DNA from: a virus
IMG/VR virus record: IMGVR_UViG_3300017951_000032
Coordinates: 1-41,353 of that record
Direction: 5' to 3' (one strand)
Length of the DNA: 41,353 bases
A program made the translations under genes and the position numbers. Under the pieces are notes generated by a model. It ran no database searches. It saw nothing but the letters and a program-made list of their open reading frames with translations, and was not told the DNA's origin. Shown piece after piece: positions 7,477-39,471 of this stretch; within the stretch, counting starts at the first letter, position 1, and each line of letters opens with the position of its first letter.

Positions 7477-7513
7477 ACATGGGTCAATAGACCTCCCTTA
7501 TTTGTGTAACTAG

Positions 7514-7542
7514 CCGGGTACTTGGAAGAGGCCCGGTTTTTT
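7514..7542 (+). terminator. Terminator CCGGG / CCCGG + T6
   Basis: Arms at 7514-7518 and 7532-7536, extended by a G-T pair, with a T-run at 7537-7542. It sits between the convergent gene ends at 7476 (rightward) and 7541 (leftward). The T-run suits only the rightward transcript. Confidence 0.75.
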
Positions 7543-8345: not shown

Positions 8346-8369
8346 TTTTCAACTTTATAATTAACTTTC
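8338..8369 (+). promoter_or_regulatory. Candidate late promoter TTTG-N20-TAACTTTC
   Basis: TTTG at 8338-8341 and TAACTTTC at 8362-8369 match TTTG / TAnnTTTG in nine of ten fixed bases with 20-base spacing. This is the best Bacteroidetes-type promoter I see. Initiation near 8375 gives a leader of about 29 nt for the gene at 8404. Its -7 box lies in the left arm of the inverted repeat 8355-8394. Confidence 0.55.
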
Positions 8370-8394
8370 GTAAATTAATAAAGGTTAATTATAA
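8355..8394. promoter_or_regulatory. Operator-like inverted repeat in divergent promoter region
   Basis: TTATAATTAACTTT (8355-8368) is complementary to AAAGGTTAATTATAA (8380-8394) over 14 pairs with one extra G. The right half overlaps a leftward promoter candidate (minus-strand TTTG at 8398-8395, TAATTTAC at 8377-8370). The left half overlaps the rightward -7 box. A dimeric regulator bound here would control both genes. This is inference from geometry. Confidence 0.5.
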
Positions 8395-8403
8395 CAAATT
8401 TGT

Positions 8404-9075
8404 ATGACAAAACCGATATCAAAGTGGTTGCGCCGTCACTTCCTGGTGATCCCCCATCGTGAAAATGAAATTGCACTCCAGGGTCCCAACGGAGAGAAGG
8501 TGTCACTCATCATTCATCATGCTTTTGAGAAGGTAAGGGAAGGAACGGTGTATGCCGCGCCCTACAACCCCAAATATGACGTCATGAGGTACGTTCGCAT
8601 GATGAAATCTGATGTAGAGGCTATCAAACTGACGCATAAGACCGTCGAGAGCCCCATCAAAGAGGGTGATGTTATCGGATTTGCCATGAACCAGGTCAAA
8701 GATGACCAATTTGAGAATAAAGTGACCTTCCTAGACTGCGACGAGGAACTTTATGAGGTAGACTTCTCCACCGTCTTTTACTGGAAGCCCAAGGGAACGA
8801 AAGAAATTAAGGTAACTCCCGGCTGGGCCATCATATCCATGGAAAAACAGCAGATGGAGAAGTATGGCAACCTCCTTTTGTTCAAAAAAAACGATTACGT
8901 CCCCACAAAAGGGGTAATTGAGTACATCTCGGAAGGTGAAGGGGGGAGCTCAGAATTTGGGCTGAAGCCAGGCGACAAAATTATGTTCACCAAAGACATG
9001 AACGTGGCCGTAGAAATAGATGGACGGACGCTATTTATGATCGCTCACTCTCAAATTCTGGGTACCTATGAGTAA
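8404..9075 (+). CDS. Tandem GroES-like co-chaperonin candidate
   Basis: 223 residues. Domain 2 (about 138-223) follows the GroES layout. It has a mobile-loop-like YGNLLLFKK (about 154-162, cf. GroES GGIVLTG), TKGVIEYISEG (cf. TRGEVLAVG), FGLKPGDKIMF (cf. LDVKVGDIVIF), and a C-terminal RTLFMIAHSQILG (cf. EEVLIMSESDILA). Domain 1 (about 12-127) has a degenerate equivalent: ENEIALQG loop, REGTVYAAP, IKEGDVIGFA, EVDFSTVFYW. Two such domains in one chain resemble chloroplast Cpn20. Phage co-chaperonins such as T4 gp31 pair with host GroEL to fold the capsid protein, and the position at the head of the late module fits. It overlaps the next gene by eight bases. Confidence 0.7.
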   Translation: MTKPISKWLRRHFLVIPHRENEIALQGPNGEKVSLIIHHAFEKVREGTVYAAPYNPKYDVMRYVRMMKSDVEAIKLTHKTVESPIKEGDVIGFAMNQVKDDQFENKVTFLDCDEELYEVDFSTVFYWKPKGTKEIKVTPGWAIISMEKQQMEKYGNLLLFKKNDYVPTKGVIEYISEGEGGSSEFGLKPGDKIMFTKDMNVAVEIDGRTLFMIAHSQILGTYE

Positions 9076-21182: not shown

Positions 21183-24100
21183 ATGGAATATGTTGACAAA
21201 ATACTATTTGGGGGATTAAACAGTGATGATGAGGAAAGGAGCTTTCAGCCTGGAGATTATCGCGCTGCCCAAAATTGCCGGATCGCAATAACCGATAGCG
21301 GTGCCGATGGGGCAATGGTGAATATCCCTGGCACCCGAGACACTAATGTTGAGTTCACAACAGACTCTACATACACGGTAATCGGAACGTATGAAAAGAG
21401 AGACGGCACTACCATTTATTTTGTCCACAACTCATCCACTGACGACCATAGAGTAATTCAATATGATCCTACAACTTCCACCGAAGGAGATAGTCAGATT
21501 CTCCTTCAGAATGACCCCAACGGCTCCACAGATGTTCTCCAGTTCGACAGCCAGCGACTCATCTCTGGTGTGGAAGTGGTCGATGACAACCTGTTCTGGA
21601 CCGACGACAACAATGGGATACGTCATCTTAACATAACAAAAGCGCAGCGCTACGGCAAAAGCATAGAAGTGGAGATCGTTTTTGGTGTGCCCGAAGATGG
21701 CTCCAACGCCGTTTTTGCTAATGGCGACACCTATTCCTTTGAGGCCTTCAATGAAACGGGAGCCACACAAACAGGTGGTTCTGTCCTTATTCTTACCGCC
21801 AATGGCTCCTATGAGGATGACCTGGAGGAAGGAGCAGTAGAATTTGCTGCCGCCTTCAATACTAATGGTACAGTAAATAGTTTGTATCAGGCAGAGGCCA
21901 GGGGGAAATCCGTGTTCCTTACTGAAGTGGGATCAACATCAAGGAGAGATGGCCTGAGTCCCACAGTAGCAGTAAATACTACGAGCTCAGCACCCGTATC
22001 GTGGTACTACACCAACGTATATCCTTTGGCGATCTCTGAGCAGATGATTAGCCTCGCCAAATATCCTCCCGTCCAGGCACCTTCAGTTTCATTCATTAAG
22101 GATGCCAATAAGGAAGGAAATTTCGTAAATGACAGCATTTTTCAATTTCAATATAGATACGTCTATGATGGTAACTTTAAGTCTGCATGGAGCCCTATAA
22201 GTGATGTGGCCCTTCAGTCTCCCAGTTGCTATGATGGCCATGACTACAATGGCATAGAAGTAAACTTCACAGATGCCGTCACTGCCAGCAGAAACCTAAT
22301 GAATGAGATCGTTAGGATTGAAGTTGGAGTAAAAGAACATAACACCGGTGACTTACGCCTGGTAAAATCTATACCCAGGAATGAGGTCGGGCTTCATAAG
22401 TCCTTTATCTACTTCTATAATGATCAGGAATATCCCGTTGTAGATCCGGTAGATGCGGCAAAGCTTTACGACTCCGTTCCTATCAAGAGTCGTTCGCTCA
22501 TTGGTACCCTCCAGAACAACAATTCTGACCAACGGCTGATGTTGGGCGGAAACCTGGAGGGGTATGACAATGTACCAGTAAACGTAGACATTACCCCGAG
22601 CCTTACGCCTATTGTGGATTGCGCGGGTAGATATACCGTTGAATTTACTCTGAAAATTGAAAACCTTATTAACTCCGATATTGGGGCCGTTCACCAACAC
22701 GAAAATGATATATGGCCTACATTTGGAGGTATCAAACCCTCCGGATCTTATGTCTCTGGTGTAGGTACAGATTACCTCCAATATCTTCCGGAGGGTGGCT
22801 TTGTGGGGTATCTCGCAGGCACCAACCATTTTGCTATTTCTACCCAGGATGAGGACGCCGCAATCTCAGCGTACAGTGACTCCGAAAAAAATATCTATGA
22901 TTCATCGACGTCTGGATTGAGAAATGATATCGAAACGGCAATTACTACCGGCACGCTGCGCCAGAACTTCTCTATACCCAATGTGAAGCCAGGGCGATAT
23001 GTGATCAGAATAGCCTCCCATTGGTGTTCCTTTGGGGACAAGCTCGGAAAGGGTGCTGATTATGACCTTAACAATGGCCGCAGGTACCAGACGACCTCCA
23101 GTTATGTGGATGGAGTAGATACTGGAGGTGGCGTTGTCTTTGGAACAGAAATTATCGTAGACCTCCCACATATCGGGGCCGGATCTACATCCACGGTAAA
23201 TGCTGGGGAGTTTGTTCTGAAAGACCTTACCGATCCCAGCGTAGGTGGAACGGCAGATGCCCTCCATGGATACCTGTTAGACGCAAAGGGATCTTCAGAT
23301 ATCGAAGATTTGCAGTCAGGGATCAGAATGGAAAAGAGGATCGTAAATGCCTATGATAGCAGTACGTCCCTCGGAAATACCAGAACAGACCATAATGGGT
23401 TCTTTTTCTGGACATCCTCAAATCCATTCACATACCTTAGAATAGGAATTGAGGACCAGGCAGGCAACGAAACCGTCTCCAGCACATCTTCCTTCCATTA
23501 TGAGGGTGGACTATTGGAATTGGCTGATGGTACCTTGGCCACCAAGCAGAAAAATTATATCACTTCCGGAACGAATGCTTTGAAAGAGGCAATCGTATGG
23601 AATGAGAATGAGTCTTTCAGAGACACTTATGCCACCTTCATTACGGGTAGGCTCCTTAACACAACGACAAGTGAGCCCATCAAAGGAATGAACGTGGTAG
23701 TATCTGGCGTGGGAAGGACCAGTGTTACAGATACAAAAGGGGAATATCGTATTCTGGCTTATACAGATGGGGCCACTACCCTGCTCACCGGATCATCTAA
23801 CTTCTCCAATAACTCGGTATGTTGTATGACCATCTCCCCCAACGCTAGGGTATTATCCCTTACAGGGATGGGGACTACATACACGCTGGAGAATATTTAT
23901 AGGGATACTGACGTCAACTTGGCAGTATCAAGCTCCAGCCTCATCGATGGCTTTCGCTTTAAGCGGGGTGGTCGCGTACAGTTGGGTATCGTCTATTATG
24001 ACGCTGCCGGACGTAGTGGCTTTGTGAATACCGTAGACTCGATGATTGTGGAGACTCCCTGGTGGGAAACGGTGAATGGAGATTCCTTCAATAACCTTAC

Positions 24101-25889
24101 CTACCAGATACACCATACTCCCCCGGTCTGGGCTACACACTACCAGATCGTAAGGACCAAAGATCAAGTGTACCAGGATTATAGACAGTTGGTGATCGAT
24201 AACGCGCAGTATGTTTCAGGCTATGACTCTGCAACAGATACCCCCAACTATGTGTCTTTTGGTGATCAGATGCAGGAAGTGCACATCTCCCTGGCAACAT
24301 TGACCAAGTATGCAGAGGAAAATGCCGGCAGCAGGCTAAGCTATCAGTACGTCGAAGGCGATCGTATCCGTCTTGTCCGTCAGGCCGATGGCACATATTA
24401 CGATACCCTGTTTGACTATCCTATCAAGTCGCAACGTGGCGGCAACCTGGTTATCGACATCTCAAATGATATTCCAGAGCTTGAAGAAGGAACCTGGATA
24501 GAAATATATACTCCCAGGGCATCTGGGGAGACAAAGTTATTCTATGAGTTTGGCTTCAGAGATGCCATTGGAGATGCGGGATTGAGTACACGCTACCATG
24601 AGGCCCCCGTAATTGATCAGACGTCCTCACTGCCTGCTACGGGCCTTATGTTTGAGGGTAATAGTTATCTTCGGAAACGCCAGATGACGACCACCACCGG
24701 CAAGATATACGAGGCCCTGGTAGAGTCTCCGTCCAGGTCTGACTTTTACCTTTCCGACGATGAAAATATAGGCCGCGTAAATACGGTCAACAGAGATGCC
24801 CGGCAGCAGCAAAGGACCTCCCACTTACGTTTCTCTGATCCCTACTCCGTGGATCTGAATGTAAATGGCCTTTCCAGTTTCCAGGCACTCAATGGAACGT
24901 CCTTCCCGGCAGACTATGGTAGGCTGGAGGCCCTTGTGTGGGCAAAAAATGTGATGCTGGCAATATTCAATAATGAGACGATTGCAGTATATGTCAATGA
25001 AACGGTGATTTCCGATGCCTCTGGAACGCAAAATCTTCTGGCGGTAGGCGATAAGGTTTTGGGATACTGGCGTCAACTGGCCGGTGGGCATGGTACTTAT
25101 CACCCTGACTCCGTAGCTGAAGCTGATGGGGACGTATATTGGTATGATTATCGCCGTTCCAGGGTGTCAAGATACTCCAACGATGGCATCACGGAGATTT
25201 CTGCTAATAAGATGCGCAAGCACTTCGATGATCGCTCTGCCTACATGGATAAGAGGGATAATGGATCAGCGGCAATAGGCGTATTTGACAAGAAACACCA
25301 GGAGTACATCCTGACATTGTTCTATGATGATGTTCTTACTGCGGATACCATCGTCTACAATGCGAAAGCAAAGAGATGGGTATCTCTCGTTTCCTATGTT
25401 CCGGAATATTACTCCAGGACTGACGGTGATCGATTGCTGTCCTTCGTAGATGGCCGTCCATACCTTATGAATGAAGGCGCGGAATATGGCAACTTCTACG
25501 GCACAAGATATGATCAGTATGTTACTATTGTAGCCAACGGCAATCCAGATATACAGAAAGTGTATATGTCCCTGGCGGCACATGCCAACTTTGTGGATGC
25601 TTCGCTTGGCCTTTGGTATGCCCCGACAATCATCGTCAAAGACAGTGAGACGGGAGCAAATAAGCTCAGTGAATTGGTGGAGTCAGACTTCGAACATGAA
25701 AGCGGTGTGTGGCGGTCAAAGTTCCTGCGTGACGTCAATACGGTGGCCGTAACAGATCCACTATTCAATGGGGATCGTTTGAAGGGTAAAACATTGGAAA
25801 TCAAGTTATTGAATAGTAATTATAATTATGTAATTATCAATAATTTGCTTATATTTTCAAATTCAGATTATTTATCAATACCGCAATAA
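21183..25889 (+). CDS. Tail nozzle/muzzle protein with CarboxypepD_reg-like domain
   Basis: 1568 residues, probably the distal tail tube of a short-tailed phage. The N-terminus MEYVDKILFGGLNSDDEERS followed by DYRAAQNCRI is the typical opening of nozzle-type (T7 gp12/P22 gp4-like in role) proteins in Bacteroidetes phages. Long beta-rich sequence follows. At about residues 817-860, FITGRLLNTTTSEPIKGMNV then SVTDTKGEYRIL match a carboxypeptidase-regulatory-like beta-sandwich. Later WYDYRRSRVSRYSNDGI (about 1319-1335) and DKKHQEYILTLFYDD (about 1363-1377) resemble beta-propeller blades. The final ~30 codons are unusually AT-rich (NSNYNYVIINNLLIF). Function by context and character. Confidence 0.78.
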   Translation: MEYVDKILFGGLNSDDEERSFQPGDYRAAQNCRIAITDSGADGAMVNIPGTRDTNVEFTTDSTYTVIGTYEKRDGTTIYFVHNSSTDDHRVIQYDPTTSTEGDSQILLQNDPNGSTDVLQFDSQRLISGVEVVDDNLFWTDDNNGIRHLNITKAQRYGKSIEVEIVFGVPEDGSNAVFANGDTYSFEAFNETGATQTGGSVLILTANGSYEDDLEEGAVEFAAAFNTNGTVNSLYQAEARGKSVFLTEVGSTSRRDGLSPTVAVNTTSSAPVSWYYTNVYPLAISEQMISLAKYPPVQAPSVSFIKDANKEGNFVNDSIFQFQYRYVYDGNFKSAWSPISDVALQSPSCYDGHDYNGIEVNFTDAVTASRNLMNEIVRIEVGVKEHNTGDLRLVKSIPRNEVGLHKSFIYFYNDQEYPVVDPVDAAKLYDSVPIKSRSLIGTLQNNNSDQRLMLGGNLEGYDNVPVNVDITPSLTPIVDCAGRYTVEFTLKIENLINSDIGAVHQHENDIWPTFGGIKPSGSYVSGVGTDYLQYLPEGGFVGYLAGTNHFAISTQDEDAAISAYSDSEKNIYDSSTSGLRNDIETAITTGTLRQNFSIPNVKPGRYVIRIASHWCSFGDKLGKGADYDLNNGRRYQTTSSYVDGVDTGGGVVFGTEIIVDLPHIGAGSTSTVNAGEFVLKDLTDPSVGGTADALHGYLLDAKGSSDIEDLQSGIRMEKRIVNAYDSSTSLGNTRTDHNGFFFWTSSNPFTYLRIGIEDQAGNETVSSTSSFHYEGGLLELADGTLATKQKNYITSGTNALKEAIVWNENESFRDTYATFITGRLLNTTTSEPIKGMNVVVSGVGRTSVTDTKGEYRILAYTDGATTLLTGSSNFSNNSVCCMTISPNARVLSLTGMGTTYTLENIYRDTDVNLAVSSSSLIDGFRFKRGGRVQLGIVYYDAAGRSGFVNTVDSMIVETPWWETVNGDSFNNLTYQIHHTPPVWATHYQIVRTKDQVYQDYRQLVIDNAQYVSGYDSATDTPNYVSFGDQMQEVHISLATLTKYAEENAGSRLSYQYVEGDRIRLVRQADGTYYDTLFDYPIKSQRGGNLVIDISNDIPELEEGTWIEIYTPRASGETKLFYEFGFRDAIGDAGLSTRYHEAPVIDQTSSLPATGLMFEGNSYLRKRQMTTTTGKIYEALVESPSRSDFYLSDDENIGRVNTVNRDARQQQRTSHLRFSDPYSVDLNVNGLSSFQALNGTSFPADYGRLEALVWAKNVMLAIFNNETIAVYVNETVISDASGTQNLLAVGDKVLGYWRQLAGGHGTYHPDSVAEADGDVYWYDYRRSRVSRYSNDGITEISANKMRKHFDDRSAYMDKRDNGSAAIGVFDKKHQEYILTLFYDDVLTADTIVYNAKAKRWVSLVSYVPEYYSRTDGDRLLSFVDGRPYLMNEGAEYGNFYGTRYDQYVTIVANGNPDIQKVYMSLAAHANFVDASLGLWYAPTIIVKDSETGANKLSELVESDFEHESGVWRSKFLRDVNTVAVTDPLFNGDRLKGKTLEIKLLNSNYNYVIINNLLIFSNSDYLSIPQ

Positions 25890-25892
25890 AAA

Positions 25893-26633
25893 ATGCCACT
25901 TCCATTAGCAGCCATAGCAGCATTAGCTGGCCCAGCCATGAAAGCCGGAACGTCCATTTACCAGGGCATCCGAGCGAAGCAGTTGAGGGATAGAAACCCG
26001 CGTCCGACATACAGGATACCGGGAGAAGTGGGTGAGGCAGCAGCAGCAGCGAGGTTGGCATATAATGACCCCAACCTGTACGCTCGAAATATTGCTGCCC
26101 GTCAGTTAGAAGCAGGCACAGCCGCCAATGCTGGCAGGGCTATCGATATGGGCAGGGGTGGTAATGAGGTATTGGCAACAATCGCAGCCCTCTCCGGAAA
26201 TCAGAATAGAGCGCTGGAGAACCTGGCAGTAGAAGGGGATCTTGCCCGTAATCAGCGTTTTGGGCAGATGAATAGAGCGCTGAACCAGGCGGCAAGGTAT
26301 CGTGACTATGCCTACCAGGAAAACCAAAAAGAGCCTTATACCCAGGCACAGCAGGCAGCAAGCGCACTGGCTGGAGCATCTATTCAAAATATGTATGGTG
26401 CTACGTCCGACTTCTCAGATATTGCCACTAAGCTTTTGCCGATTGGTGATCTGAAAGGCAACAATACTGGCACCATGTCCAATATTGGAGGTAAGCTGAG
26501 TAATGATGACCTGGGACGTCTGGTGCAATCACTGATCGCCAGATCCGGATTGGCTGGAATAGGAAAAGGTGCTGAAATAGGAAAAGGTGCTGAAATAGGA
26601 AAAGGTGCTGGAATAGGAAAGGTGCTGGAATAG
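25893..26633 (+). CDS. Internal virion protein, truncated by frameshift in 18-bp repeats
   Basis: 246 residues as read. Ala/Gly/Arg-rich, starting MPLPLAAIAALAGPAMKAGT, with helices throughout (NIAARQLEAGTAANAGRAID), as in ejected core proteins of short-tailed phages. The C-terminus is a repeat of six residues (GIGKGA). The fourth DNA repeat lacks one A, so the frame ends at a TAG at 26631. Restoring the missing base continues the frame to TAA at 26693-26695, adding a GVVGATLAKNILDGAY tail and ending just before the next ATG at 26698. Small Gly/Ala-rich internal proteins fit ejection or core roles. Confidence in gene reality is high, in the true end low. Confidence 0.75.
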   Translation: MPLPLAAIAALAGPAMKAGTSIYQGIRAKQLRDRNPRPTYRIPGEVGEAAAAARLAYNDPNLYARNIAARQLEAGTAANAGRAIDMGRGGNEVLATIAALSGNQNRALENLAVEGDLARNQRFGQMNRALNQAARYRDYAYQENQKEPYTQAQQAASALAGASIQNMYGATSDFSDIATKLLPIGDLKGNNTGTMSNIGGKLSNDDLGRLVQSLIARSGLAGIGKGAEIGKGAEIGKGAGIGKVLE

Positions 26634-26659
26634 GAAAAGGTGCTGGAGTGGTGGGTGCT
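26556..26659 (+). repeat. 18-bp tandem repeat array with a one-base deletion
   Basis: Five copies of GGAATAGGAAAAGGTGCT-type units (first base pair varies GGA/GAA), plus a degraded sixth (26645-26659). The fourth copy (26610-26626) is 17 bp, with AAA instead of AAAA, changing the reading frame. Encodes GIGKGA or EIGKGA. Confidence 0.85.
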
Positions 26660-26697
26660 ACTTTGGCTAAAAATATACTTGATGGGGCATATTAACA

Positions 26698-28083
26698 ATG
26701 GCAGTAATGAACGGACTCGACGGATTATCAAGGATAGGTGAAGCAGTTGTCCTTCCAACCAGGGACAATGGAGCCCCTATTGATAACTATTTGGAGAGAA
26801 GGGATAAGGCACAAGCTGAGCTTAATCCTACTAACTCCCCATTTGCCGAATCTCCTGCCGTTGAAGGCCTGTTCCCTGATGACTACCGTGACATTATGGG
26901 AAGATACTACGATGTGAGTCGTTTGGCATCTGACTATATGAGGAAGGGGTATAACATCTCCAATCCTACTACCTCAGAAGAGTTTCAGCTTCGAACACAG
27001 CTAAGGGAGTTGCAAGCGCAGATTGAATATGATGAGCAATATGCGCGTCAGGGGAAGAGTCTCTATGACCAAGCTCGCAAGGCAGCACTCTCTGGGAAGT
27101 ATGATATCAACCAGTGGAATGAGCTGGAGCGTCAATACTTTGATGATCGAGCCCGCATGGACTTCGGGCAAAGGCTCGACCTTGGATTACCTACGGTTTC
27201 ACCCAAGCAAAATCCTTATGTCTTTGCTGATGAGTTTAACCGCCTGAAGTCGAATATCCTGCCGGAGAAAGATACAAACCTTTTCCAGCAGGGAACACTT
27301 TATGGTGAGGAAACAACAACGTCCTACACCGAGCAGAGCCGGAAGAATATGGCCATACAGCTGATCTCAGATCCTCGCGGCCAGGAATACCTTTCCACTC
27401 AGTTCAATCAGCTTCCCAAAGAGCAGCAAGACAAGATCACTAAGTCAGCAACAGAAAAAGGAACTAGCCCACTATATGAATATAGCCTTTCAGTGGTTAA
27501 CAAAAATCTGGGCCAGGTACAGAAAGACGCAACCTATAAACAGAAATCAGCGGCGTGGGATAGATTAGGTATCGAAAGGGGTAATTACGAATACTTATCA
27601 GAAATGTTGCTTCGCAATATGGCGTTATTGGCGTCTGGAAAAGCGATGGAGGGCGGATCCTATGGCCCCGGCACTCCAGGTCTGTATGCGGGGATGAAGT
27701 TTGGCGGTGGCGATAAGACAATCGTCCGCGTGGACCAAAATGCTAACCAGGACGGACTTTTGATTCTGGTAGAATACCGAAATAAGAGTGGTTATGGTGT
27801 TAAGCATGAATATATCCCTATTACCAATGAGAATATGTGGACTCAGTTTATCACTCAAATGGTAAAAGAGAACTTTGGCTCGGATGCCGATAGGGTCCTT
27901 CATGAAATGAGCAAGCGTTATCAGCAGCAGTACAAGGGAGATCTGAAGAACTTCAGGTGGCAGAATATCTTCCCAGGAAACTCTTCAGGATCACAGCCCA
28001 ACACTAACAGTAGTGGAGTACAATGGCAATCAAGTGGTGGTAAGAGTAGTTCAAGTAGTGCTTCAGGTATAAAGTGGAAATAA
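26698..28083 (+). CDS. Internal virion protein candidate
   Basis: 461 residues. The middle is helical with Gln/Glu/Arg (LRTQLRELQAQIEYDEQYAR, about 99-118; WNELERQYFDDRARMDFGQR, about 140-159). The C-terminus is a Ser/Gly/Gln-rich tail (SSGVQWQSSGGKSSSSSASG). It lies between another internal protein and the giant cargo protein, so I infer a virion-internal or ejection-associated role. The ATG is two bases after the restored stop of the preceding gene; the stop overlaps the next ATG by one base. Confidence 0.72.
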   Translation: MAVMNGLDGLSRIGEAVVLPTRDNGAPIDNYLERRDKAQAELNPTNSPFAESPAVEGLFPDDYRDIMGRYYDVSRLASDYMRKGYNISNPTTSEEFQLRTQLRELQAQIEYDEQYARQGKSLYDQARKAALSGKYDINQWNELERQYFDDRARMDFGQRLDLGLPTVSPKQNPYVFADEFNRLKSNILPEKDTNLFQQGTLYGEETTTSYTEQSRKNMAIQLISDPRGQEYLSTQFNQLPKEQQDKITKSATEKGTSPLYEYSLSVVNKNLGQVQKDATYKQKSAAWDRLGIERGNYEYLSEMLLRNMALLASGKAMEGGSYGPGTPGLYAGMKFGGGDKTIVRVDQNANQDGLLILVEYRNKSGYGVKHEYIPITNENMWTQFITQMVKENFGSDADRVLHEMSKRYQQQYKGDLKNFRWQNIFPGNSSGSQPNTNSSGVQWQSSGGKSSSSSASGIKWK

Positions 28084-31000
28084 TGAACGAAGAACTGAAC
28101 AAATACTATGAGTATCTGAAAGGGGCTGGAGCAGATGTTCCGGATTCCTTTGATTCTTTTTCCAATACCCTTTCCGATGAAGGTAATAGGGAGACGTATT
28201 ACAACTACCTCCGTAATGAGGGGTATGATACGCCCGAAACATTTGAGTCCTTCAATTCCACATTATTTGGAACCGTAAAAAAAAAAGACGATACTCAGGT
28301 TTCTCAACCTTCTTTGGACGAATCTCCAGAGCCTTTGGAAGAAGCCGAAAACGACCAAGGCCTAGAGGGACCATTAGCCTTAGAAAATCCATGGGATAAG
28401 ACACTGGAGACTGCGAACATGCAGCCACCAGAAGTACAGCCCCAATGGCAAGAAGCGCTACCCGATGGCTCTATGACCGAGGGGATGGAAGTTCCTGAAG
28501 TGAGCATGGATGACGTTGGGAAGATCGAAAGTGGGCCTATCGGTCCAGATAATCCCTACCGTCCAGACCTGAAAGGCTTCGTCCTGGCCGAAAATCAAAT
28601 CAAATCAAGGTTAAATAATGACAAGATCAAGCCGTGGATGTTCTCCGGCACAAATGATCCTGGCTCCGATGTGACTCCATCGGGTAATCCTGCCTATGAG
28701 GGGACAACAGAGCAAGAGCTTCCCAGAGACTTATCCTGGGAGGACCTGGCAGAGCAAGTTGAAAATGCTGAAGGCCAGGATGTGAAGGCCGGAATGGATA
28801 AATACCTGAACTATGAGGGCCGTCAGATGCTTGAATACGTTCTCCAGAAGCGTGCCGATGATCGCATGAGGGTACGCAATATGCTTATTGAGCATGATGA
28901 GGACGTCCTTCTTCCTATTGAGGGTACAGCCGGCGAAAGTGATGGAGTCGAACTATACGATCTCAATACCTTTGGAATGACAAAAGTCACCAAGGCGGAT
29001 ATCAAAAGCTACCTCGATGGATCAGCAAAGAGATTGTTCGGCGAAGAGTCCCTGGACGATCTCCCGGAAGATCAGAAGAAATTTATACTCAGATCATTCG
29101 CAGAGAAATACAGTGACCGTGAAACGGTAGAAACCATGTTCAAAGATTCAGGAATGGACTTTGACGTTTCTCGCCTACAACACATATATGGTGCCTTCAC
29201 TAAGGGAGCATACGGCATGCTGGAGGGATCAGCGAAACAGACAATGAGGGCGCTTGATCCGGAAGATGGTTATATCAATACCATTAGAAAGTTTGTTTTC
29301 GGGGAGCCAGACATGCACCCATTGGCAGAACAGCGATACTGGGAAGATAAAAATATTGCCTTAAACAAGGACTTTAGTGCCCTGGAGAAGAAGCAACTAG
29401 GATGGATTGGCGCATATAAGTCAAATCCCAAATACCAAAACTCCTTCCTTTCTAATACCATCCCTTCAGCATTGGGTAGTGCCGTGGGCATTGTCGCCGG
29501 TGGTGGTGGTACGCCTTTGGGTATGGGGATTATCGGTTCCGGTGCCGGTGGTGATATGCAGGCAACAGCAGCATTTCAGAAAGGTGCAGATCTGGATGCA
29601 GCATTTAAGGCCCAGGTAGTAGGAATGGGAATAGGTGCTTCCGAAGCATTCCCGTTCATTAATATTTTTAATCGATTCAGTTCTGGAGCAAAGGGGTCAA
29701 TCCTCAAACGTATAGCAATGTCCTCTGGAGAGGAAGGCTTACAAGAGATATTTGCTGGGGCAATGAATAACTGGACAGCCCAACAGCTATATGACGAGAA
29801 GCAAAGGATCATAGACGACAAGACACTGGAGGAAGGTGCTGCCGGTGCAATCGTAGGATCTCTATTTGCTGGAGCCGGGGCCCTGGTGGAAGGGCGCCAG
29901 AAGAATAAGCAGCCTAAGCTTACAGAGGAACAATCCCGAGAAAAACAGGCTAATCTCCGCAAATTGTATGAGGATGCGAACCCAGAAAAGGTCGCAAAAG
30001 AGCAGGAGGCCGAGCAGGCGAAGCTCAAAAAGCTGTATGAGTCTGCCCAGCCAAAAGAGGAAGCAACAACCGAAGAGGGGCCACAAGCGAAGATTCCCGT
30101 ATCTCCGCAGCCTACTAATGAAGTAACCGATGTAGTAGAACCAATAAATCAAGAAGAAAATGCCGGACTTCCCGAAGATCAAAAACCCGAAGAGGAAATC
30201 ATCGAAGCTCAAAAAGACGAAGCCCAAATCGAGCCAACAGAAACGGTAGACAATACTGAAGAGGTGGTTGAAGAGGTGGTTGAAGAGGAAGCCGCTGAGC
30301 CTAAGTTTGATGTCCAGGAGGGTGAATCTTTAGGAGAGTTGACGTCCAGGAAGAAAACCAAGACGGCTACGGCAAAGCGCATCAAGAAGCTGAAGAAAGA
30401 CCATGCAGTATTTTCCACTAAGAAGCATACCATCGTCAGAGATAGAGATGGGCTCCATGTGATTAAAAACAAAGAAAATGCTCCCGAGGACCGCACGAAG
30501 AAAGTGTATCGGGAAGTGGTGAAGCAATACATCGCCGAGAACTTTGAGTCCATGGAGAACGCCGATGAGATTGTAGAAGTGGCAATGGTCTGGGATGCGA
30601 ACCGCCCACTACGGAAGGGTGCTGGCCGTGCTGATATGGGGGTAGACGATGTTATTGCCAGTGAGATAGGGGGTATGAGCCGTGCTGATTTCGCCCGTTA
30701 TGGAGATCCTAATGCGATCACTGAACAGATGGCCAAAGCTTATGGTATGGACGAGAAGGCTGATGGCATTGATGCTGATATTGAAGTTGCTAGTGCTTCC
30801 AATTTTGGGGGAAGGGATGATGCAATCACACCAGAAGATGTCGTTGATTTTATGATTCGATTCCCAGGAGGCCCAAAAGACTTCAGGGCTCACGCCAAAA
30901 AGGCAAGCGCTGAAGCTGGATTTGGGATTGACTTGGACGCAAGGGATGAAGCTGCCAGGAAGTTCAAGGAGTTGACAGGATTGGATATCGGCGAAAGCAT

Positions 31001-34000
31001 CACCAACCAGATATTCACTGAGGATGCCAAGCGTATCCAGCGTGACCCCATCGAGGAAGCCAAGAAGAGTGCCGCCGATGAACTGGGGCAGGCAGACGCA
31101 GCATTAGCTGAAGAGGCAGCACGCCAAGAGGCCTTTGAGCAAAAAGCAAAGGAGGCATCCACAGTTAAAGGAGAAGGGAAACCTGAAGTAAATAAGTCTG
31201 CCAGGGATTACAAGTCGTCTGAGGGAACGAGGGATACTTCCAGAAGCCGGGAACGCCAATACCTTAATCGTGCATTGGAGGACCCGATGACGCCGAAAAA
31301 GGTGAAAGATCGTCTCTCCACAAGGAAAAGAGAATATACCCAGCAGGAAAATGAGGAAACTAGGGATATCGCCTTGGCCGCAATCGCCGCAATGCGTAGG
31401 GCCGGGAATACCTTTTCGGAGATATTCGATATTGCAGCAACCGATGGCATCCTTCCTAACCTATTGGATCGCATGGCTATTGCTATTGTTGTCCGGAACA
31501 ACGTTCAAAATAGTGACCCTGGGCTGGCGTCAGCAATCGATACGTGGATAGACCAAAAGTCACGGGATGCTGGGCAGGCGATTCAAATACTCGATGCGGT
31601 AATGCCAGAATCCCTTGTTAGAAGGGAACGTAATCGCATTGTAGATAACCAGAAATTCAAGCTTGAGAGGAAGAAAGGAAAATCCGGAAAAACGCTGGAC
31701 GCCGAACTTGATCAGGTGATCGAGGAAGTAAAAACCAAGAAAGCAGATGTCGAGCAGGCCTTTGAGTCTGTCCAGGGCAAAATTCCTGGTCTTGGGGATC
31801 CGGAAATTATTGCAGATCCCGGCGCTCAGAAGCGCGTTCAAAAGTCAGATGCCAGAAAGAAAAAAATCAAGGAGGGCAAGAAGAAAGTGAATGAAGGGCT
31901 GAAGTTGCTGAAGGGATTGCCCCCAACGGCAAATATGACTCTTTCTGGACTTACCCCCTATCAGGTAAAAGGATTGCGTCTCATCGGCCAGGGCCTTATT
32001 GAGCAGGGATACTACCGTTTCGCTGAGTGGAAGGCGAAGTTGGCAGCAGCATTAAAGGGGTATAGCCTGGACATGGATCGTGTGGCCGTAGAGCTTTGGA
32101 ATGACACCAGCCTGGGACCAAGGAACTTGTCGGCAGACGCAATGGACGAACGTCGAGACGAAGCCGTTGAGGAACTTGCAAGTAAGATTGTGGCCAGGGC
32201 AAAAGATAAGGCTCCAAAGGAAAAAGATCTTCTTGATATGGTCGTCTCCGAGCTATATGGAAAAGCGGCGGAAGTTATCCCCACAGAAAAAAGGAAGAAG
32301 CAGTCACCATCCGAGATTGTGGCTGAGATGATTCGCAATAAAGATGTGGCTGAAGATGTGTGGGCCGCAGCGAGGGATCGCGTGAAAGCAAAAATCCAGG
32401 AAAACCCCAAGTACACCGAGGATCAGAAACTCGACATGGAAGCGAGGCTGGACGACTACTTTACACTCGTCAGTGACGTTCCGTTTGGACATACCAGGGC
32501 GCGGCAGGCCATTCGTGAAGGTGCGAGGGATATCGGTGCTGAGATCAAAGATATTGCCATCCAACACTACACCAAAGCTGAAGCCTCCAGAACGACATTG
32601 GCACAAAAGCTGGTGGCGAGGGTAGGTCTTACTGGTCAGGCAGCACTTGACTTACAGCAGGCCTTTGTAGATGAGCTTCGCGCAATGAACGCTGAGCAGC
32701 AAAAGAAGATACTGGAACGTCAGCTGGGGCCAGCAGTAACACCCAAAGCGAAAAAACGACACAAGAGAATCGTAGAGCGTGCCGTGGATCAGATCAATAT
32801 GGGAGCGCTGAATGATACCCGTTTCAAGGGATTGTTCGGAGAGAAGTATGGCTTCGCAGAAATTAACCCTGAAGTGGAAGCTGAGCTCCTGGAAATCGTA
32901 CGTCTCATTAACTTGGTAGATGGTGGTGAGTATAAACGCCGGAAGATGGCTGAGTTTACGAATATTCTGGATAGGCTCGACAACCAGCACACCGCATACC
33001 ACACCATGCAGGCGCTTACAGAGCATTTCTACGTCTCTATTCTGTCTGGTGTCACAACATTATTTCGTGCTGGTATGGGAGCAGCAATGACGCAGACAGC
33101 CAATGTGGTGGCCAACACTGTATCCCACATGGCCCGGGACATCACCAAAGGCAGGAACCCCATGGCCATTGTTGGTCGTGGTATGCAGGCCTATTGGCGC
33201 GGAGCAATGAAAGGCGCTCCATTTTATCGTGGTGTCCTGAGAACGGGGTATTCAGAACTGGAATCCACCGGCGATCAGGGGAACTACTCTCCATTGAGGG
33301 AAGTAATAAATACACCGTTTTCTGAAACGATACGCCAGATAAAGAACGCCAAAAACAATAAGAAAAAAGCTAAAGCGGCAGGAAACCTCGTTTATAAGAC
33401 CCTGTTCCAGCCAATGACAATGGTTTTCCGGAACCTTATCGCCTTGGATGCAATATTCCACTATGGCCAGAAGGAATATTTCACGATGGTCGAGGAACAT
33501 AATAAGCTCCTGGCAGAAGGGGTGTTTGATAAGAGAGATACTGCGTTTTGGACTGAGATCCATAAGCGAATGGTAGAAGGTAAAAACTTCCGGGATCAGG
33601 CAGAAATCCAGGTAGACGAAGAACTTCAGATATTGGAGCAGGCCGGACAGAAGCAACCAAAGGAATACCGCAAAAAGCGTATTACTGAAATTATCGAATC
33701 TCTGAGGGATGAGGATATCCAGAATTATGCCCGTCAGAAAGCATTGGAGGGAACCCTTACCAATAAGCCGAGATATGTTCTTGGAAATAGGCTATATAAC
33801 AATTTGGCAAAAGCAATTACGATAACGAAGGAAGATGATGGGCCAGATACAATCGCTGGAATGATGTTGAAGGCTGCATTGCCTATCCTCCGTGTGCCTA
33901 CTAATCACATTAATATGTGGTTGGATTATACCCTTTTAGGATTAGTTAGGGCCAAGTATCAGCTGAGAAAAGGCGATGGTGTGTCAGAGACAATGCGCTC

Positions 34001-35081
34001 TGATGAAAGGCTAGAACACATCATGAAGGTTGCTTTTGGTACAGGCGTTTATGCATTACTTGCATATTCAATCTTTGACTTCAATGAAGATGATGAACTA
34101 GTTCTGCAAAAAGATCCATGGATAGAGTTTAGCGGGTCCGGTTGGCAGAAAAATAGAGGGTATCTATATGACAAGGCGAATAGTAAGAATTTTAAAGATT
34201 TTAGTGTCCGCGTAAAACTACCCTGGGACACAAGTAGGTATGGTGAGTGGATATCTTATCGTGATATGCCTCTAGGGTTCATGTTCGCTTCCTTGGGGTA
34301 TATGAGTGATGCCATTAAATATAACCAACGGGAAGATAAGCCAAAGCTTACCGATGCTGAGGAGTTTTTATCCTTCTACTTCCAGAAAGGTATGATGTCT
34401 CCAATATTTATGGTTAGGGAGCAGAACTATATGCAGGGGCTTGATAAGTTGCTTAATGTTGTAAGTGAAAGGGGAACGTTAGATGCTGCAATGGGGTTTG
34501 CAATGAAGCCTGTTACAGCGATGATGCCCAACCTATACAAACAGGTTGGTAAGTCCACAAGGGCTATTCAAGGCAAGCAGGCACCTAGAGCAGCGAAATA
34601 TAAGGATGACTTCCTCCTGGCGCTGAAGCATGAGATGTATAAGAATTTTCCATTCATGGATCAGTACATCACCGATAAGCAGCATGATCAGCTGGGGTAT
34701 CCTATTGACGTCAAGTTTGAGATACCTTATACACCGGACTCCTTCTTCAACTACGCTAAAAAGATCGCAGACAGCCAGAACACTCCAGAGAAGAAAGGAT
34801 GGGAATTGGTATATAAATATCCTGAAGTCACACTAGGAAATTACATCTCCATCCAATCCATGAAAATTGGTGGGGAGGATGTAGATATTACCCGAGAAGA
34901 TAAAATATGGTTTGAGAAAACTGCCGCTGATGACTTTAGGACAAGGCTGGAAGGTTCTTACCGTGATCTTCAGTCATTCGGTCCAGAAGAATTGCAAAAA
35001 GAAATCAATGCAATAAAAAATGAAGTAAGGGAATACACAAGAGCCTTATTTTATGATAGAAAAATTAAGGATATAAAGTGA
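28083..35081 (+). CDS. Giant internal (cargo/polyvalent-type) virion protein
   Basis: 2332 residues from ATG 28083, which overlaps the previous stop (TAATG). Residues 5-62 hold two related ~28-residue units (YYEYLKGAGADVPDSFDSF; YYNYLRNEGYDTPETFESF). A Gly-rich hydrophobic region near 455-600 includes EEGLQEIFAGAMNN, then acidic coiled coil around 615-755. KGLRLIGQGLIEQGYYRFAEWKAKL near 1296-1320 resembles LPD-type segments of large polyvalent phage/plasmid proteins. Hydrophobic helices such as LPILRVPTNHINMWLDYTLLG (about 1933-1953) lie in the C-terminal third. Such giant proteins are packaged in the capsid and ejected with DNA. I see no DxDGD RNA-polymerase or lysozyme motif. Confidence 0.75.
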   Translation: MNEELNKYYEYLKGAGADVPDSFDSFSNTLSDEGNRETYYNYLRNEGYDTPETFESFNSTLFGTVKKKDDTQVSQPSLDESPEPLEEAENDQGLEGPLALENPWDKTLETANMQPPEVQPQWQEALPDGSMTEGMEVPEVSMDDVGKIESGPIGPDNPYRPDLKGFVLAENQIKSRLNNDKIKPWMFSGTNDPGSDVTPSGNPAYEGTTEQELPRDLSWEDLAEQVENAEGQDVKAGMDKYLNYEGRQMLEYVLQKRADDRMRVRNMLIEHDEDVLLPIEGTAGESDGVELYDLNTFGMTKVTKADIKSYLDGSAKRLFGEESLDDLPEDQKKFILRSFAEKYSDRETVETMFKDSGMDFDVSRLQHIYGAFTKGAYGMLEGSAKQTMRALDPEDGYINTIRKFVFGEPDMHPLAEQRYWEDKNIALNKDFSALEKKQLGWIGAYKSNPKYQNSFLSNTIPSALGSAVGIVAGGGGTPLGMGIIGSGAGGDMQATAAFQKGADLDAAFKAQVVGMGIGASEAFPFINIFNRFSSGAKGSILKRIAMSSGEEGLQEIFAGAMNNWTAQQLYDEKQRIIDDKTLEEGAAGAIVGSLFAGAGALVEGRQKNKQPKLTEEQSREKQANLRKLYEDANPEKVAKEQEAEQAKLKKLYESAQPKEEATTEEGPQAKIPVSPQPTNEVTDVVEPINQEENAGLPEDQKPEEEIIEAQKDEAQIEPTETVDNTEEVVEEVVEEEAAEPKFDVQEGESLGELTSRKKTKTATAKRIKKLKKDHAVFSTKKHTIVRDRDGLHVIKNKENAPEDRTKKVYREVVKQYIAENFESMENADEIVEVAMVWDANRPLRKGAGRADMGVDDVIASEIGGMSRADFARYGDPNAITEQMAKAYGMDEKADGIDADIEVASASNFGGRDDAITPEDVVDFMIRFPGGPKDFRAHAKKASAEAGFGIDLDARDEAARKFKELTGLDIGESITNQIFTEDAKRIQRDPIEEAKKSAADELGQADAALAEEAARQEAFEQKAKEASTVKGEGKPEVNKSARDYKSSEGTRDTSRSRERQYLNRALEDPMTPKKVKDRLSTRKREYTQQENEETRDIALAAIAAMRRAGNTFSEIFDIAATDGILPNLLDRMAIAIVVRNNVQNSDPGLASAIDTWIDQKSRDAGQAIQILDAVMPESLVRRERNRIVDNQKFKLERKKGKSGKTLDAELDQVIEEVKTKKADVEQAFESVQGKIPGLGDPEIIADPGAQKRVQKSDARKKKIKEGKKKVNEGLKLLKGLPPTANMTLSGLTPYQVKGLRLIGQGLIEQGYYRFAEWKAKLAAALKGYSLDMDRVAVELWNDTSLGPRNLSADAMDERRDEAVEELASKIVARAKDKAPKEKDLLDMVVSELYGKAAEVIPTEKRKKQSPSEIVAEMIRNKDVAEDVWAAARDRVKAKIQENPKYTEDQKLDMEARLDDYFTLVSDVPFGHTRARQAIREGARDIGAEIKDIAIQHYTKAEASRTTLAQKLVARVGLTGQAALDLQQAFVDELRAMNAEQQKKILERQLGPAVTPKAKKRHKRIVERAVDQINMGALNDTRFKGLFGEKYGFAEINPEVEAELLEIVRLINLVDGGEYKRRKMAEFTNILDRLDNQHTAYHTMQALTEHFYVSILSGVTTLFRAGMGAAMTQTANVVANTVSHMARDITKGRNPMAIVGRGMQAYWRGAMKGAPFYRGVLRTGYSELESTGDQGNYSPLREVINTPFSETIRQIKNAKNNKKKAKAAGNLVYKTLFQPMTMVFRNLIALDAIFHYGQKEYFTMVEEHNKLLAEGVFDKRDTAFWTEIHKRMVEGKNFRDQAEIQVDEELQILEQAGQKQPKEYRKKRITEIIESLRDEDIQNYARQKALEGTLTNKPRYVLGNRLYNNLAKAITITKEDDGPDTIAGMMLKAALPILRVPTNHINMWLDYTLLGLVRAKYQLRKGDGVSETMRSDERLEHIMKVAFGTGVYALLAYSIFDFNEDDELVLQKDPWIEFSGSGWQKNRGYLYDKANSKNFKDFSVRVKLPWDTSRYGEWISYRDMPLGFMFASLGYMSDAIKYNQREDKPKLTDAEEFLSFYFQKGMMSPIFMVREQNYMQGLDKLLNVVSERGTLDAAMGFAMKPVTAMMPNLYKQVGKSTRAIQGKQAPRAAKYKDDFLLALKHEMYKNFPFMDQYITDKQHDQLGYPIDVKFEIPYTPDSFFNYAKKIADSQNTPEKKGWELVYKYPEVTLGNYISIQSMKIGGEDVDITREDKIWFEKTAADDFRTRLEGSYRDLQSFGPEELQKEINAIKNEVREYTRALFYDRKIKDIK

Positions 35082-35097
35082 TTTCTGTGACTTTTTA

Positions 35098-35113
35098 GTT
35101 AATTTTCATTAAT
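35098..35113 (+). promoter_or_regulatory. AT-rich box before tail-fibre gene
   Basis: GTTAATTTTCATTAAT matches 14054-14069 in 15 of 16 bases, in a 46-base gap before the fibre gene ATG at 35128. A weak hairpin (AAAGT/ACTTT, 35075-35094) with T-run precedes it, repeating the terminator-then-box layout of 14034-14069. No convincing -7 element fits before the start codon. Confidence 0.35.
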
Positions 35114-35127
35114 TTACAAATTGTAAT

Positions 35128-38100
35128 ATGCTTATATTAGTCAACATAAAGAAGCCTGAAGCACAGAGCTATGTGGAGAAGCGGATAGATACCGCCGAAA
35201 TCCTCTATGCAGGGGAAGAGAACGGGCTCTTAATACTCCACCAGGCGAACTTCAATAAGCTTATTCCATTAAACTGTTCCCAGGACCTTGCTACCGTCCA
35301 GGCATTGATCACAGATGGTAGTCTCCGTCCGGTAGATGTCTTTGATACAGACGGTAATGGGGGGACGTCTACTATCCTTCTCAACGGTCGCAGCATTGAG
35401 TCGTTGGTGGCTTATGCTTCTGGAACCCTTGCGAAATGTAGACTCAACGATATCTCCAAGGAATTTGTGATTGACGATACTCCGGCAAACCTTCAGTCCT
35501 GGTTCAATGCCTCCTTTACGGGTGGTGTTACTGATCATGGGGCTTTGACAGGCAATGGAGATGATGATCACCCACACTATCTCACTGAGCCGAGGGCATT
35601 AACATGGCTAGGCACAAGGACTACCGACGACCTCCCGGCAAGCGGAACCAACCTATACATGACCACGGCGGAGAGATCCAAACTGGCGGGTATCGAGGCT
35701 GGAGCTACGGCGGATCAAACGGCTAGTGAAATTGAGGCCCTGTATGACAGTCTTGTACCACAGGTTACCGTTGGTGAATATACTGCCGGGACATTAACAG
35801 ATAAGAGGACCTGGAGCCCTGATGACATCGCCAAAGCGGCAGCGATCCATACTCTTACCGATCATGGGTCAATAACAGGGCTGGGAGATGATGATCACAC
35901 GCAATATCATACAGATGGTAGGGCTCTTGCCTGGTTAGGAACAAGAACAACTGACGACCTTCCGGAAGGAGCAACAAACTTATATTTTACGCTTACTGAG
36001 CGTACCAAACTTGGAACGATTGAAACGGGAGCTACCGCAGACCAGGGGGCTTCTGAAATCAAGACCTTATATGAAAGCGTAACATCGCAAGTGAGTACCG
36101 CTGAAAAAATAGCAGGATCCCAGACCGCACTCAGGACGTTTAGTCCCAAGGATATCGCGGATATGGCGGTCACTCATGGTGGTGGTGGCGGTGGTGGTGT
36201 GACTACCCTCGCAGCCCTTACCGATACAACCGTCTCTTCTCCGGCAGATGGCCATCTCCTGTTTTACAATTCGGGAAGTTGGACCAATGCCGCAATGAGT
36301 GGAGAAGGGGCCGTGGATGCAGCTGGAAACTTTACGCTTTCTACGACAGGTGTTGCTGGCGGTACGTATGGTTCTGCGACACAGGTAGCACAAATCACCG
36401 TCGATACAAAAGGCCGGATCACCGCTGTTTCGGATGTAACAATCTCTGGTGGTGGCGCATCATTAGTATCACTTACAGACACAGATATAAGTACACCATC
36501 AGCAGGAGATATGCTTCTGTATGATGGTACTGACTCTTTTGATAATGTGGCAATGTCTGGTGAAGGATCTATCACTTCTGGTGGTGTCCTTACGCTGGAT
36601 AATGCTTCTGTCATCGGGAAAGTATTAACGGGATGGACGTCTGGTTCAGGGTCGGTTCTCGCAACGGATACGATCCTCCAGGGGATGCAAAAGATTGATG
36701 GTAATGTTGCTTTAAGGGAGCCAGCGATCACCGCGGGAACGTCCCTGCAATACTACCGTGGCGACAAGACCATGCAGACGCTAAATACTGCTGCGGTGGC
36801 GGAGTCAGGGAATTTATACTTTACTGAAGCGAGGGTAAGGAGTACGGTACTTACAGGATTGAGTACAGGTACCGCTACTGCCGTTGTGGCTACTGATAAT
36901 ATGCTGGTGGGTTTGGGGAAATTGCAAGCACAGATCAATGGAATTACTCCAGGTGTTGATCAGCTTGTGAATCTTACAGATACAGATGTAAGCACTCCCG
37001 TTGGTGGAGATATGCTTCTTTGGGATGGCGTAGACTCATTTGACAACCAGGCTATGTCTGGAGGTGGAACATTGAGTGCTTCAGGTGTCCTGACGTTGAA
37101 CAATGCCAGTGTAACAGGACAAGTCCTGACAGGCCTAAGTACCGCTACTGCGACTCCCGTTGTTGCGGGAGATACTATTCTACAAGGAATAGGAAAACTC
37201 CAGGGCCAGATCAATGCACTACCTACTATTCCAACCGAACTTACAGACCTCTCTGACGTCAATACGTCCACTCCTACAAATAGGAATGTCCTTGTAGCAG
37301 ATGGGACGGATTGGGAGTCAAGAGCATTGGGAACAGCTGACATTCAGTCTGGAACATTTGTAGATGGAAGGATTGCTGCGTCTAATGTGACTCAGCACCA
37401 GGCTGTATTGGCGATCAATATGAGCCAGGTGAGTGGTAATCTTCCTGTCTCTCAGTTAAACAGTGGTTCAGGCGCTTCTTCATCAACTTTTTGGCGGGGC
37501 GATGGAACATGGGCGTCTCCGGCTGGTGGTTTTGCTAACTTTGATACCAAGTCTGACTCTGGTTCCGATCAAACAGTAAACTCTGCGGACATCCTGGAGA
37601 TAGCCGGTGGCACAGGGCTTACGGGTACGATCTCTAAAGCTGCAACAACTGTTACAGTTTCGTTGGCACTTGATGATACAGCAGTAACACCAAATAGCTA
37701 TGGTTCGGCAACTCAATACACAAGTATTACGGTTGACCAACAGGGCCGAATTACTAATGCTTCATCGGCAAATATCCAAATTGCTACCGGTCAGGTAACA
37801 GACTTAGGTGAATTTATAGAGGACACTGTTAATCTTGCGCTACTTAGCTCTGACAATTCTCTAACTAAAACATATAACGATCCAGCAGGAACTATTGACC
37901 TGGTGGTAAATCCAGCCAATGTTGATCACAATTCCCTTAGTAACCTTACGGTGGGAGATGTCCATACCCAGTATTCCTTGATTAGCTCTCAGGGCGGCGC
38001 ACCATCGAGTACGCCAACAAGGGTTGGATTAATAAATGTCGATACTACTGGAGAGGTTCCTTATATCTCGGTAGGGACCACTAATAGTGGTGATTGGTTT

Positions 38101-39471
38101 AGCCTATCAGGAGGCGGTGCCACTCAGCTTAGTGATTTATCTGACGTTGGAACTACAACAGCTACCAACCTAAATGTACTGGCAGCAGACGGCACCGATT
38201 GGGACTCAACTGCATTGACGGCAGCACACATCCAATCAGGAACGTTTGCAGACGCCAGAATAGCAGCATCTAATGTTACCCAGCATGAAGCGTCATTGGC
38301 TATCACAATGAGCCAGGTGAGCGGAAATCTTCCGGTATCTCAACTTAATGGGGGTTCCGGGGCATCCTCTTCTACTTTTTGGAGAGGGGACGGGACATGG
38401 GCTTCGCCAGCTGGAGGCTTCGCCAACTTTAATGTGGGTGGTGATAGCGGGTCAGACCAAACGGTAAATTCTGGAGATCTGCTGGATATTGTGACTGGCA
38501 CAGGTCTTATCTCTACTGTTTCAAAAGCATCCACCACAGTCACATTAAATGTTGCTCTGAGCCATCTCGGAATAGAGTCTTTGTCCGACCCAGGGGCGGA
38601 TAGGTTGATGATGTGGGATGATAGCGCAGGGAATACCGCATGGATGACAGTTGGGAGTGGCCTTAGTATTGCCGCCACAACACTGTCCCTTGACACATCT
38701 GGGGATTGGGCGGGAACCTTTGATGGGCAGGAAGGATCCTATTACCTGAGCAGAGCCAATCACACTGGCACACAGACCCTAAGCACTATCAGTGATGTGA
38801 CAGCGAGTGCCGCTGAAGTAAATGCCGTTGCCGATCTGTCAGGCCTAACAAGTGGCTGGGTGTATCGTGCTACAGGAACCGCAGCTGCTTCATGGGGCGC
38901 TTTGAATTTATCCCAGTTAGGAGACGTAAATGTTTCCTCCCTTGCGTCAAGTGAAGTCCTAATGTGGAGTGGGTCCAATTGGTACAATGATTATGTGGCT
39001 GCATTGGGTGTGACATGGGTAGGCGCTGGCCGTCCATTGACATCATCTGATACTACCGTCCAGGCAGCATTGGAAACAGTAGAAGATGCCGTGGATGCTA
39101 TTGATACAACTACAACAGTGGTAGTAAATATTGTGAGTCCAGATGAGGATATCACAGCATCTACGAACTATAATTTTCCCTTTGAGATGCCCTCTAAACT
39201 CAATGGAAAGAATATCACTGGGTACAATATCTATCACAATGTTGCTGGGGCTGGAGATGGTACTGATGCAATGTTATATAATGTCACTGACTCAGTGGAT
39301 GTAGCAAGTGCAGATGTGACAATCGCGGCAGGTGCAACCAAATCCGGAGCCGCGACAATCAATACATCAAATGACGATATCGATACGGACGACCTCTTCA
39401 GGATTGAAGTGGGGCCAGCATCGTGGACAACGCCTCCAAAAGGGCTATACATCATCTTTACAACGAACTAA
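35128..39471 (+). CDS. Repeat-rich tail fibre / tailspike-like protein
   Basis: 1447 residues, likely trimeric fibre or side appendage that contacts the host. The N-terminal ~130 residues (MLILVNIKKPEAQSYVEKRI) probably anchor to the tail. After that, fibre repeats recur: a ~104-residue unit TDHGxxTGxGDDDH...TRTTDDLP twice, 'LTDTDxSTP' units three times, and a ~144-residue unit with STFWRGDGTWASPAGGF twice. A seven-Gly linker sits near residue 353. The C-terminal ~115 residues (YNFPFEMPSKLNGKNI, YNIYHNVAGAGDG) form a separate domain, probably receptor-binding. Gene order after internal proteins supports the call; exact host target unknown. Confidence 0.82.
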   Translation: MLILVNIKKPEAQSYVEKRIDTAEILYAGEENGLLILHQANFNKLIPLNCSQDLATVQALITDGSLRPVDVFDTDGNGGTSTILLNGRSIESLVAYASGTLAKCRLNDISKEFVIDDTPANLQSWFNASFTGGVTDHGALTGNGDDDHPHYLTEPRALTWLGTRTTDDLPASGTNLYMTTAERSKLAGIEAGATADQTASEIEALYDSLVPQVTVGEYTAGTLTDKRTWSPDDIAKAAAIHTLTDHGSITGLGDDDHTQYHTDGRALAWLGTRTTDDLPEGATNLYFTLTERTKLGTIETGATADQGASEIKTLYESVTSQVSTAEKIAGSQTALRTFSPKDIADMAVTHGGGGGGGVTTLAALTDTTVSSPADGHLLFYNSGSWTNAAMSGEGAVDAAGNFTLSTTGVAGGTYGSATQVAQITVDTKGRITAVSDVTISGGGASLVSLTDTDISTPSAGDMLLYDGTDSFDNVAMSGEGSITSGGVLTLDNASVIGKVLTGWTSGSGSVLATDTILQGMQKIDGNVALREPAITAGTSLQYYRGDKTMQTLNTAAVAESGNLYFTEARVRSTVLTGLSTGTATAVVATDNMLVGLGKLQAQINGITPGVDQLVNLTDTDVSTPVGGDMLLWDGVDSFDNQAMSGGGTLSASGVLTLNNASVTGQVLTGLSTATATPVVAGDTILQGIGKLQGQINALPTIPTELTDLSDVNTSTPTNRNVLVADGTDWESRALGTADIQSGTFVDGRIAASNVTQHQAVLAINMSQVSGNLPVSQLNSGSGASSSTFWRGDGTWASPAGGFANFDTKSDSGSDQTVNSADILEIAGGTGLTGTISKAATTVTVSLALDDTAVTPNSYGSATQYTSITVDQQGRITNASSANIQIATGQVTDLGEFIEDTVNLALLSSDNSLTKTYNDPAGTIDLVVNPANVDHNSLSNLTVGDVHTQYSLISSQGGAPSSTPTRVGLINVDTTGEVPYISVGTTNSGDWFSLSGGGATQLSDLSDVGTTTATNLNVLAADGTDWDSTALTAAHIQSGTFADARIAASNVTQHEASLAITMSQVSGNLPVSQLNGGSGASSSTFWRGDGTWASPAGGFANFNVGGDSGSDQTVNSGDLLDIVTGTGLISTVSKASTTVTLNVALSHLGIESLSDPGADRLMMWDDSAGNTAWMTVGSGLSIAATTLSLDTSGDWAGTFDGQEGSYYLSRANHTGTQTLSTISDVTASAAEVNAVADLSGLTSGWVYRATGTAAASWGALNLSQLGDVNVSSLASSEVLMWSGSNWYNDYVAALGVTWVGAGRPLTSSDTTVQAALETVEDAVDAIDTTTTVVVNIVSPDEDITASTNYNFPFEMPSKLNGKNITGYNIYHNVAGAGDGTDAMLYNVTDSVDVASADVTIAAGATKSGAATINTSNDDIDTDDLFRIEVGPASWTTPPKGLYIIFTTN
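35530..36168 (+). repeat. Tandem 104-residue duplication in fibre gene
   Basis: 35530-35841 and 35857-36168 (312 bp each, offset 327 bp) encode the same pattern: TDHGALTGNGDDDHPHYL versus TDHGSITGLGDDDHTQYH, then TRTTDDLP, ERxKLxxIExGATAD, and (S/T)P(D/K)DIA. DNA has diverged while the protein pattern is kept. Confidence 0.8.
37240..38559 (+). repeat. 144-residue repeat pair in fibre gene
   Basis: 37240-37671 and 38128-38559 (432 bp each, offset 888 bp) encode LSDVxTxTxTNxNVLxADGTDW, IQSGTFxDxRIAASNVTQH, GNLPVSQLN and the identical FWRGDGTWASPAGGFANF. Codons for the identical stretch differ at many third positions, so copies have been long separated or selected against recombination. Confidence 0.8.

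Follow-up and report, generated by a model that had tools for sequence, protein, structure and literature searches.

Does the loss of a single base in a short tandem repeat near the 3' end of a phage gene constitute a genetic device that governs the C-terminus of the encoded protein, or is it an ordinary lesion, i.e. a mutation or an error in the sequence? The question is raised by an uncultured virus contig from IMG/VR, which was analysed over its full 41,353 bases (the window). According to the original prediction, a one-base deletion in an 18-bp repeat array truncates the gene of an internal virion protein, and sequencing or assembly error, real mutation, and phase variation through repeat slippage or frameshifting were offered as possible causes. 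The answer depends on the following features:

21183-25889, + strand: upstream gene, encoding the muzzle protein (Pfam PF25731 crAss_MUZ, E 9e-21)
25893-26633, + strand: present ORF of 246 aa with a TAG end, encoding a candidate virion/cargo protein (phmmer matches to same-position genes)
25974-26417, + strand: conserved core, approximately residues 28-175, untouched by the lesion (phmmer alignments)
26553-26641, + strand: tandem array of five units, encoding (G/E)IGKGA repeats
26607-26623, + strand: unit 4, 17 bp, short by one A (AAA at 26618-26620)
26631-26633, + strand: TAG stop in unit 5, reached only through the lost base
26634-26695, + strand: putative coding sequence of a former C-terminal tail, -1 frame, with a TAA end (codon-usage score)
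26698-28083, + strand: next gene, 461 aa, in the second cargo-type position (gene order)

The units of the array measure 18, 18, 18, 17 and 18 bp. Units 1 to 3 lie at 26553-26570, 26571-26588 and 26589-26606, and unit 5 (26624-26641) is followed by a partial unit, GCTGGA. The array itself is real, and with a Tandem Repeats Finder score of 169 it is the top-scoring one in the window (the runner-up scores 74), but it starts three bases ahead of position 26556, where it had been placed originally. Unit 4 reads GGAAAGG at the place where the other units read GGAAAAGG, and is, except for the lost A, the same as units 1 and 5; in units 2 and 3, GAA (Glu) replaces GGA (Gly). Reading the array unit by unit thus bears out that copies 1-3 and 5 hold AAAA and copy 4 holds AAA, and a common frame for units 1-3 and 5 requires that unit 4 be counted as 18 bp. 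Because unit 4 is one A short, the ORF that begins at 25893 indeed meets the predicted TAG in copy 5. In the -1 frame, the sequence past unit 4 reads GKGAGVVGATLAKNILDGAY and ends at the TAA at 26693-26695, leaving two bases before the ATG of the next gene at 26698, which agrees with the claim that the undeleted frame would run to 26695. Elsewhere in the window, short degenerate repeats at 30055-30288 correspond to a Glu-rich stretch inside a 2335-aa gene, the frame of which is intact.

The late genes of the window (GroES-like, TerL, portal, ring-type, muzzle, the 246-aa gene, the 461-aa gene and giant genes) are arranged as in Bacteroidota podoviruses. In Cellulophaga phage phi38:1 and the Flavobacterium elemo phages, the order is GroES-like, TerL, portal, ring-type, muzzle, a small Gly/Ala-rich protein, a protein of ~450-550 aa and a giant protein; phi38:1 gp99 and elemo gp20 occupy the same place as the 246-aa gene and are of similar length. 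The latter gene has the muzzle gene directly on its 5' side, and a gene of the ~450-700-aa type and then a giant gene on its 3' side. In crassvirus phicrAss001, the cargo protein gene gp45 follows the muzzle gene (PMC10172136), and cargo proteins C1 (gp45) and C2 (gp46) likewise come after the muzzle gene and ahead of further cargo-size genes, although the protein has 246 aa here against 90.8 kDa for gp45 and no solved structure matched it. Searches of PHROGs, Pfam and PDB with the 246-aa protein yielded no match, and its AlphaFold model (pLDDT 39.5) was left out of the evidence. The label 'virion protein' nevertheless appears reasonable, because a muzzle gene of the crassvirus type precedes the gene, which has weak matches among same-position genes of related contigs. 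The original wording, 'internal virion protein', is in line with position and weak homology, and phi38:1 gp99, which holds the equal position, carries the annotation 'virion structural protein'; the 246-aa protein may be an ejected cargo protein.

Further observations concern the surroundings of these genes and two relatives. The two giant late genes (28074-39471; 2335 and 1447 aa) have no Pfam or PHROGs match and sit where crassviruses have RNA-polymerase-associated cargo genes of similar size. The early/late border (7476-8404) contains no long gene on the + strand but overlapping ORFs on the - strand (7541-7918 and 7824-8345). One in-frame TAG was reported for the muzzle-profile matches in the two relatives, on G038:C1:13713-13970 and G024. 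A search against Rfam gave no match anywhere in the window.

For comparison we used 22 counterparts, that is, same-position genes from 19 IMG/VR contigs and three named phages. Only five of these (L124, L123, L122, L118 and L121) were matched by the 246-aa protein in phmmer (E 1e-9 to 6e-6), over approximately residues 28-175 and at 23-27% identity, which is a weak similarity; the other counterparts were assigned by position alone. Pairwise comparison of the 246-aa protein with phi38:1 gp99 and elemo gp20 detected no similarity, so that its detected links are with uncultured contigs and not with phi38:1 or the elemo phages; relative to the gp99/gp20 family, the 18-bp array occurs only in this contig. 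The C-terminal ends of the counterparts vary in length and sequence, and the array lies past the conserved core in this variable part. Gly-rich or GxxxG C-termini give a mixed picture among the counterparts and were not counted as evidence.

TerL is 27-29% identical to that of Cellulophaga phages, Flavobacterium phages and an uncultured podovirus, and at most 34% identical to that of IMG/VR contigs. No close relative was found in viral contigs via the 246-aa, 461-aa, capsid-type, TerL and portal proteins, in genome contigs via TerL and muzzle, or in phages and plasmids by DNA search, where it should be kept in mind that near-identical records may be missing from the searched collections. Searches with degenerate peptide patterns showed the array and tail peptides to be absent from other viral contigs; a match of the repeat pattern on L135 was rejected, as it lies antisense within an unrelated gene. 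Because no close relative with the array was found, no intact homologous copy was seen.

Which of the two frames evolved as the coding frame can be read from codon usage, spacing and stop usage. We scored codon usage with a model trained on the 15 other late genes, the reference distributions being obtained by leaving out one gene at a time. In the -1 frame, the 17 codons past the array (the tail AGVVGATLAKNILDGAY) score +6.5 bits, a value that is reached by 25.9% of true in-frame windows and by 2.3% of antisense windows; of the open windows, 0.10% reach it in one wrong frame and 0.30% in the other. The frame that is now read scores -7.7 bits, which is typical of non-coding frames. At present, 64 nt separate the stop from the next gene, versus 2 nt in the tail frame, and among the 22 counterparts this distance ranges from -1 to 32 nt (median 9.5). 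By itself, the 64-nt gap is suggestive but not decisive, because the window has a second late gap much like it, of 67 nt, downstream of the portal gene. As for the stop codon, which is TAG here, TAA closes 21 of the 22 counterparts and TAG a single one. Among the 15 late genes of the window that are intact (8404-41062), 12 stop at TAA and three at TGA, but none at TAG, which serves as a stop elsewhere in the window only in a predicted early ORF (5811-6083). The codon signature of the tail, the gap and the stop usage together imply that the frame reached 26695 until recently, and they agree with the prediction that the loss of one base truncates the gene. In the comparison with related phages, to which the original prediction had looked for an answer, the gaps and TAA stops of the counterparts fit the longer frame, while no relative carrying the array turned up.

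The proposals that assign a function to the present arrangement have to account for the same data. Phase variation, in which the array would toggle the tail on and off, is extremely improbable: the gain or loss of 18-bp units leaves the frame unchanged, which largely excludes switching by repeat slippage and leaves that part of the original prediction largely unsupported, and the forward switch would need a rare one-base deletion in an A4/A3 tract, too short a run to slip often. If only the 17-bp unit were lost, the frame would be restored, so that the lesion may revert easily, but such reversion does not make the array a two-way switch. There is likewise next to no chance that the gene ends naturally at the TAG and that the tail is an open sequence by coincidence; the conserved core does not need the tail to be complete, but the coding signature of the tail, the 64-nt gap and the fact that TAG is unused in intact late genes all speak against it. 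Recoding of TAG was considered and rejected: reading it as Q lengthens no conserved late gene and no tRNA gene was found, and TAG looks avoided in late genes rather than recoded. Programmed or corrective -1 frameshifting, with a slip at GGA_AAG (A_AAG, 26618-26621) that yields a minor, C-terminally longer protein, we consider very unlikely, even though several of its elements are at hand. The A_AAG lies in the reading frame and at the right place, a slip there restores exactly the amino acids of the repeat, the TAG follows four codons later, a hairpin is possible at 26641-26667, and the codon signature is kept in the tail. The latter signature is predicted equally by a programmed shift, and in this respect it counts against the explanation that we prefer, a non-programmed loss. 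However, A_AAG arises automatically once a unit loses an A, and the intact late genes contain 58 in-frame instances of it; the heptamer is absent; and the hairpin is unremarkable (10 of 200 shuffles fold as well) and begins ~20 nt past the motif, a distance that exceeds the usual spacing between motif and stimulator. In E. coli, A_AAG is the strongest tetramer motif given a strong downstream stimulator or pseudoknot, whereas tetramers without a stimulator shift at ~0.15%, near background (PMC4066793). The resemblance to gp10A/10B of phage T7 is that here, too, a -1 shift close to the C-terminus would add a minor, extended form of a virion protein; the difference is that the contig offers a bare tetramer, without a well-placed stimulator, in a motif that follows automatically from the deletion. 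Phage T7 produces gp10A/10B by -1 frameshifting. For the present locus, the frameshifting of the original prediction is thus possible but gains no positive support, and it is very unlikely that the deletion is fixed and that slippage at A_AAG gives a small share of longer cargo protein, and hence two C-terminal forms.

By far the most probable explanation is that unit 4 recently lost one A in a single, non-programmed event, either a mutation or a sequence error, and that this shifted the frame. Since the lost tail still resembles protein-coding sequence, the locus points to such a recent event and not to a new genetic device. An artefact, in which the virus has the base and the sequencing or consensus building dropped it, has a chance somewhat short of even. 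It is consistent with the source being an uncultured virus contig, with a tail that shows no decay in codon usage and with the position of the lesion in a tandem repeat, as assembly graphs tend to retain odd paths at such repeats. An error would, however, need to have struck a short A4 run, and over the 30,363 bases of the 15 intact late genes all 377 homopolymer runs of at least four bases are unbroken: 272 of four bases, 86 of five and 19 that are longer. The data are therefore not generally prone to homopolymer errors, but this tally bears on the general error rate and not on a single event in a tandem repeat. The unbroken state of longer homopolymers favours a real one-base deletion, carried by the virus that was sampled or by much of its population, as does the location of the lesion outside the conserved core, in a region where the C-termini of counterparts vary in length and sequence; a real deletion would be tolerated, as it costs the protein no more than a variable C-terminal extension. 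A second sequence with the same deletion was not found, and the probability of a real mutation, too, falls a little below one half. Because no close relative was found, we regard mutation and sequence error as about equally likely.

Under the preferred explanation of a simple loss, the array would be a young, in-frame 18-bp repeat near the 3' end of a cargo or virion protein gene, of which the evolved product would have extended through the array to the TAA at 26693-26695, directly ahead of the next gene. The lost A would exchange the last ~24 residues for Val-Leu-Glu and the TAG stop, and the truncated protein, with its conserved core intact, would retain most of its function. The lesion, real or artefactual, is an ordinary one, and it falls in a C-terminal extension that is not conserved, in what is probably a cargo/virion protein. 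For the interpretation of this virus, it follows that the annotated end of the 246-aa gene probably differs from its evolved end, and that the array should not be taken for a phase switch. Should the deletion be fixed and the tail nonetheless be produced, the locus would be a modest case of corrective frameshifting within a virion gene of a phage.
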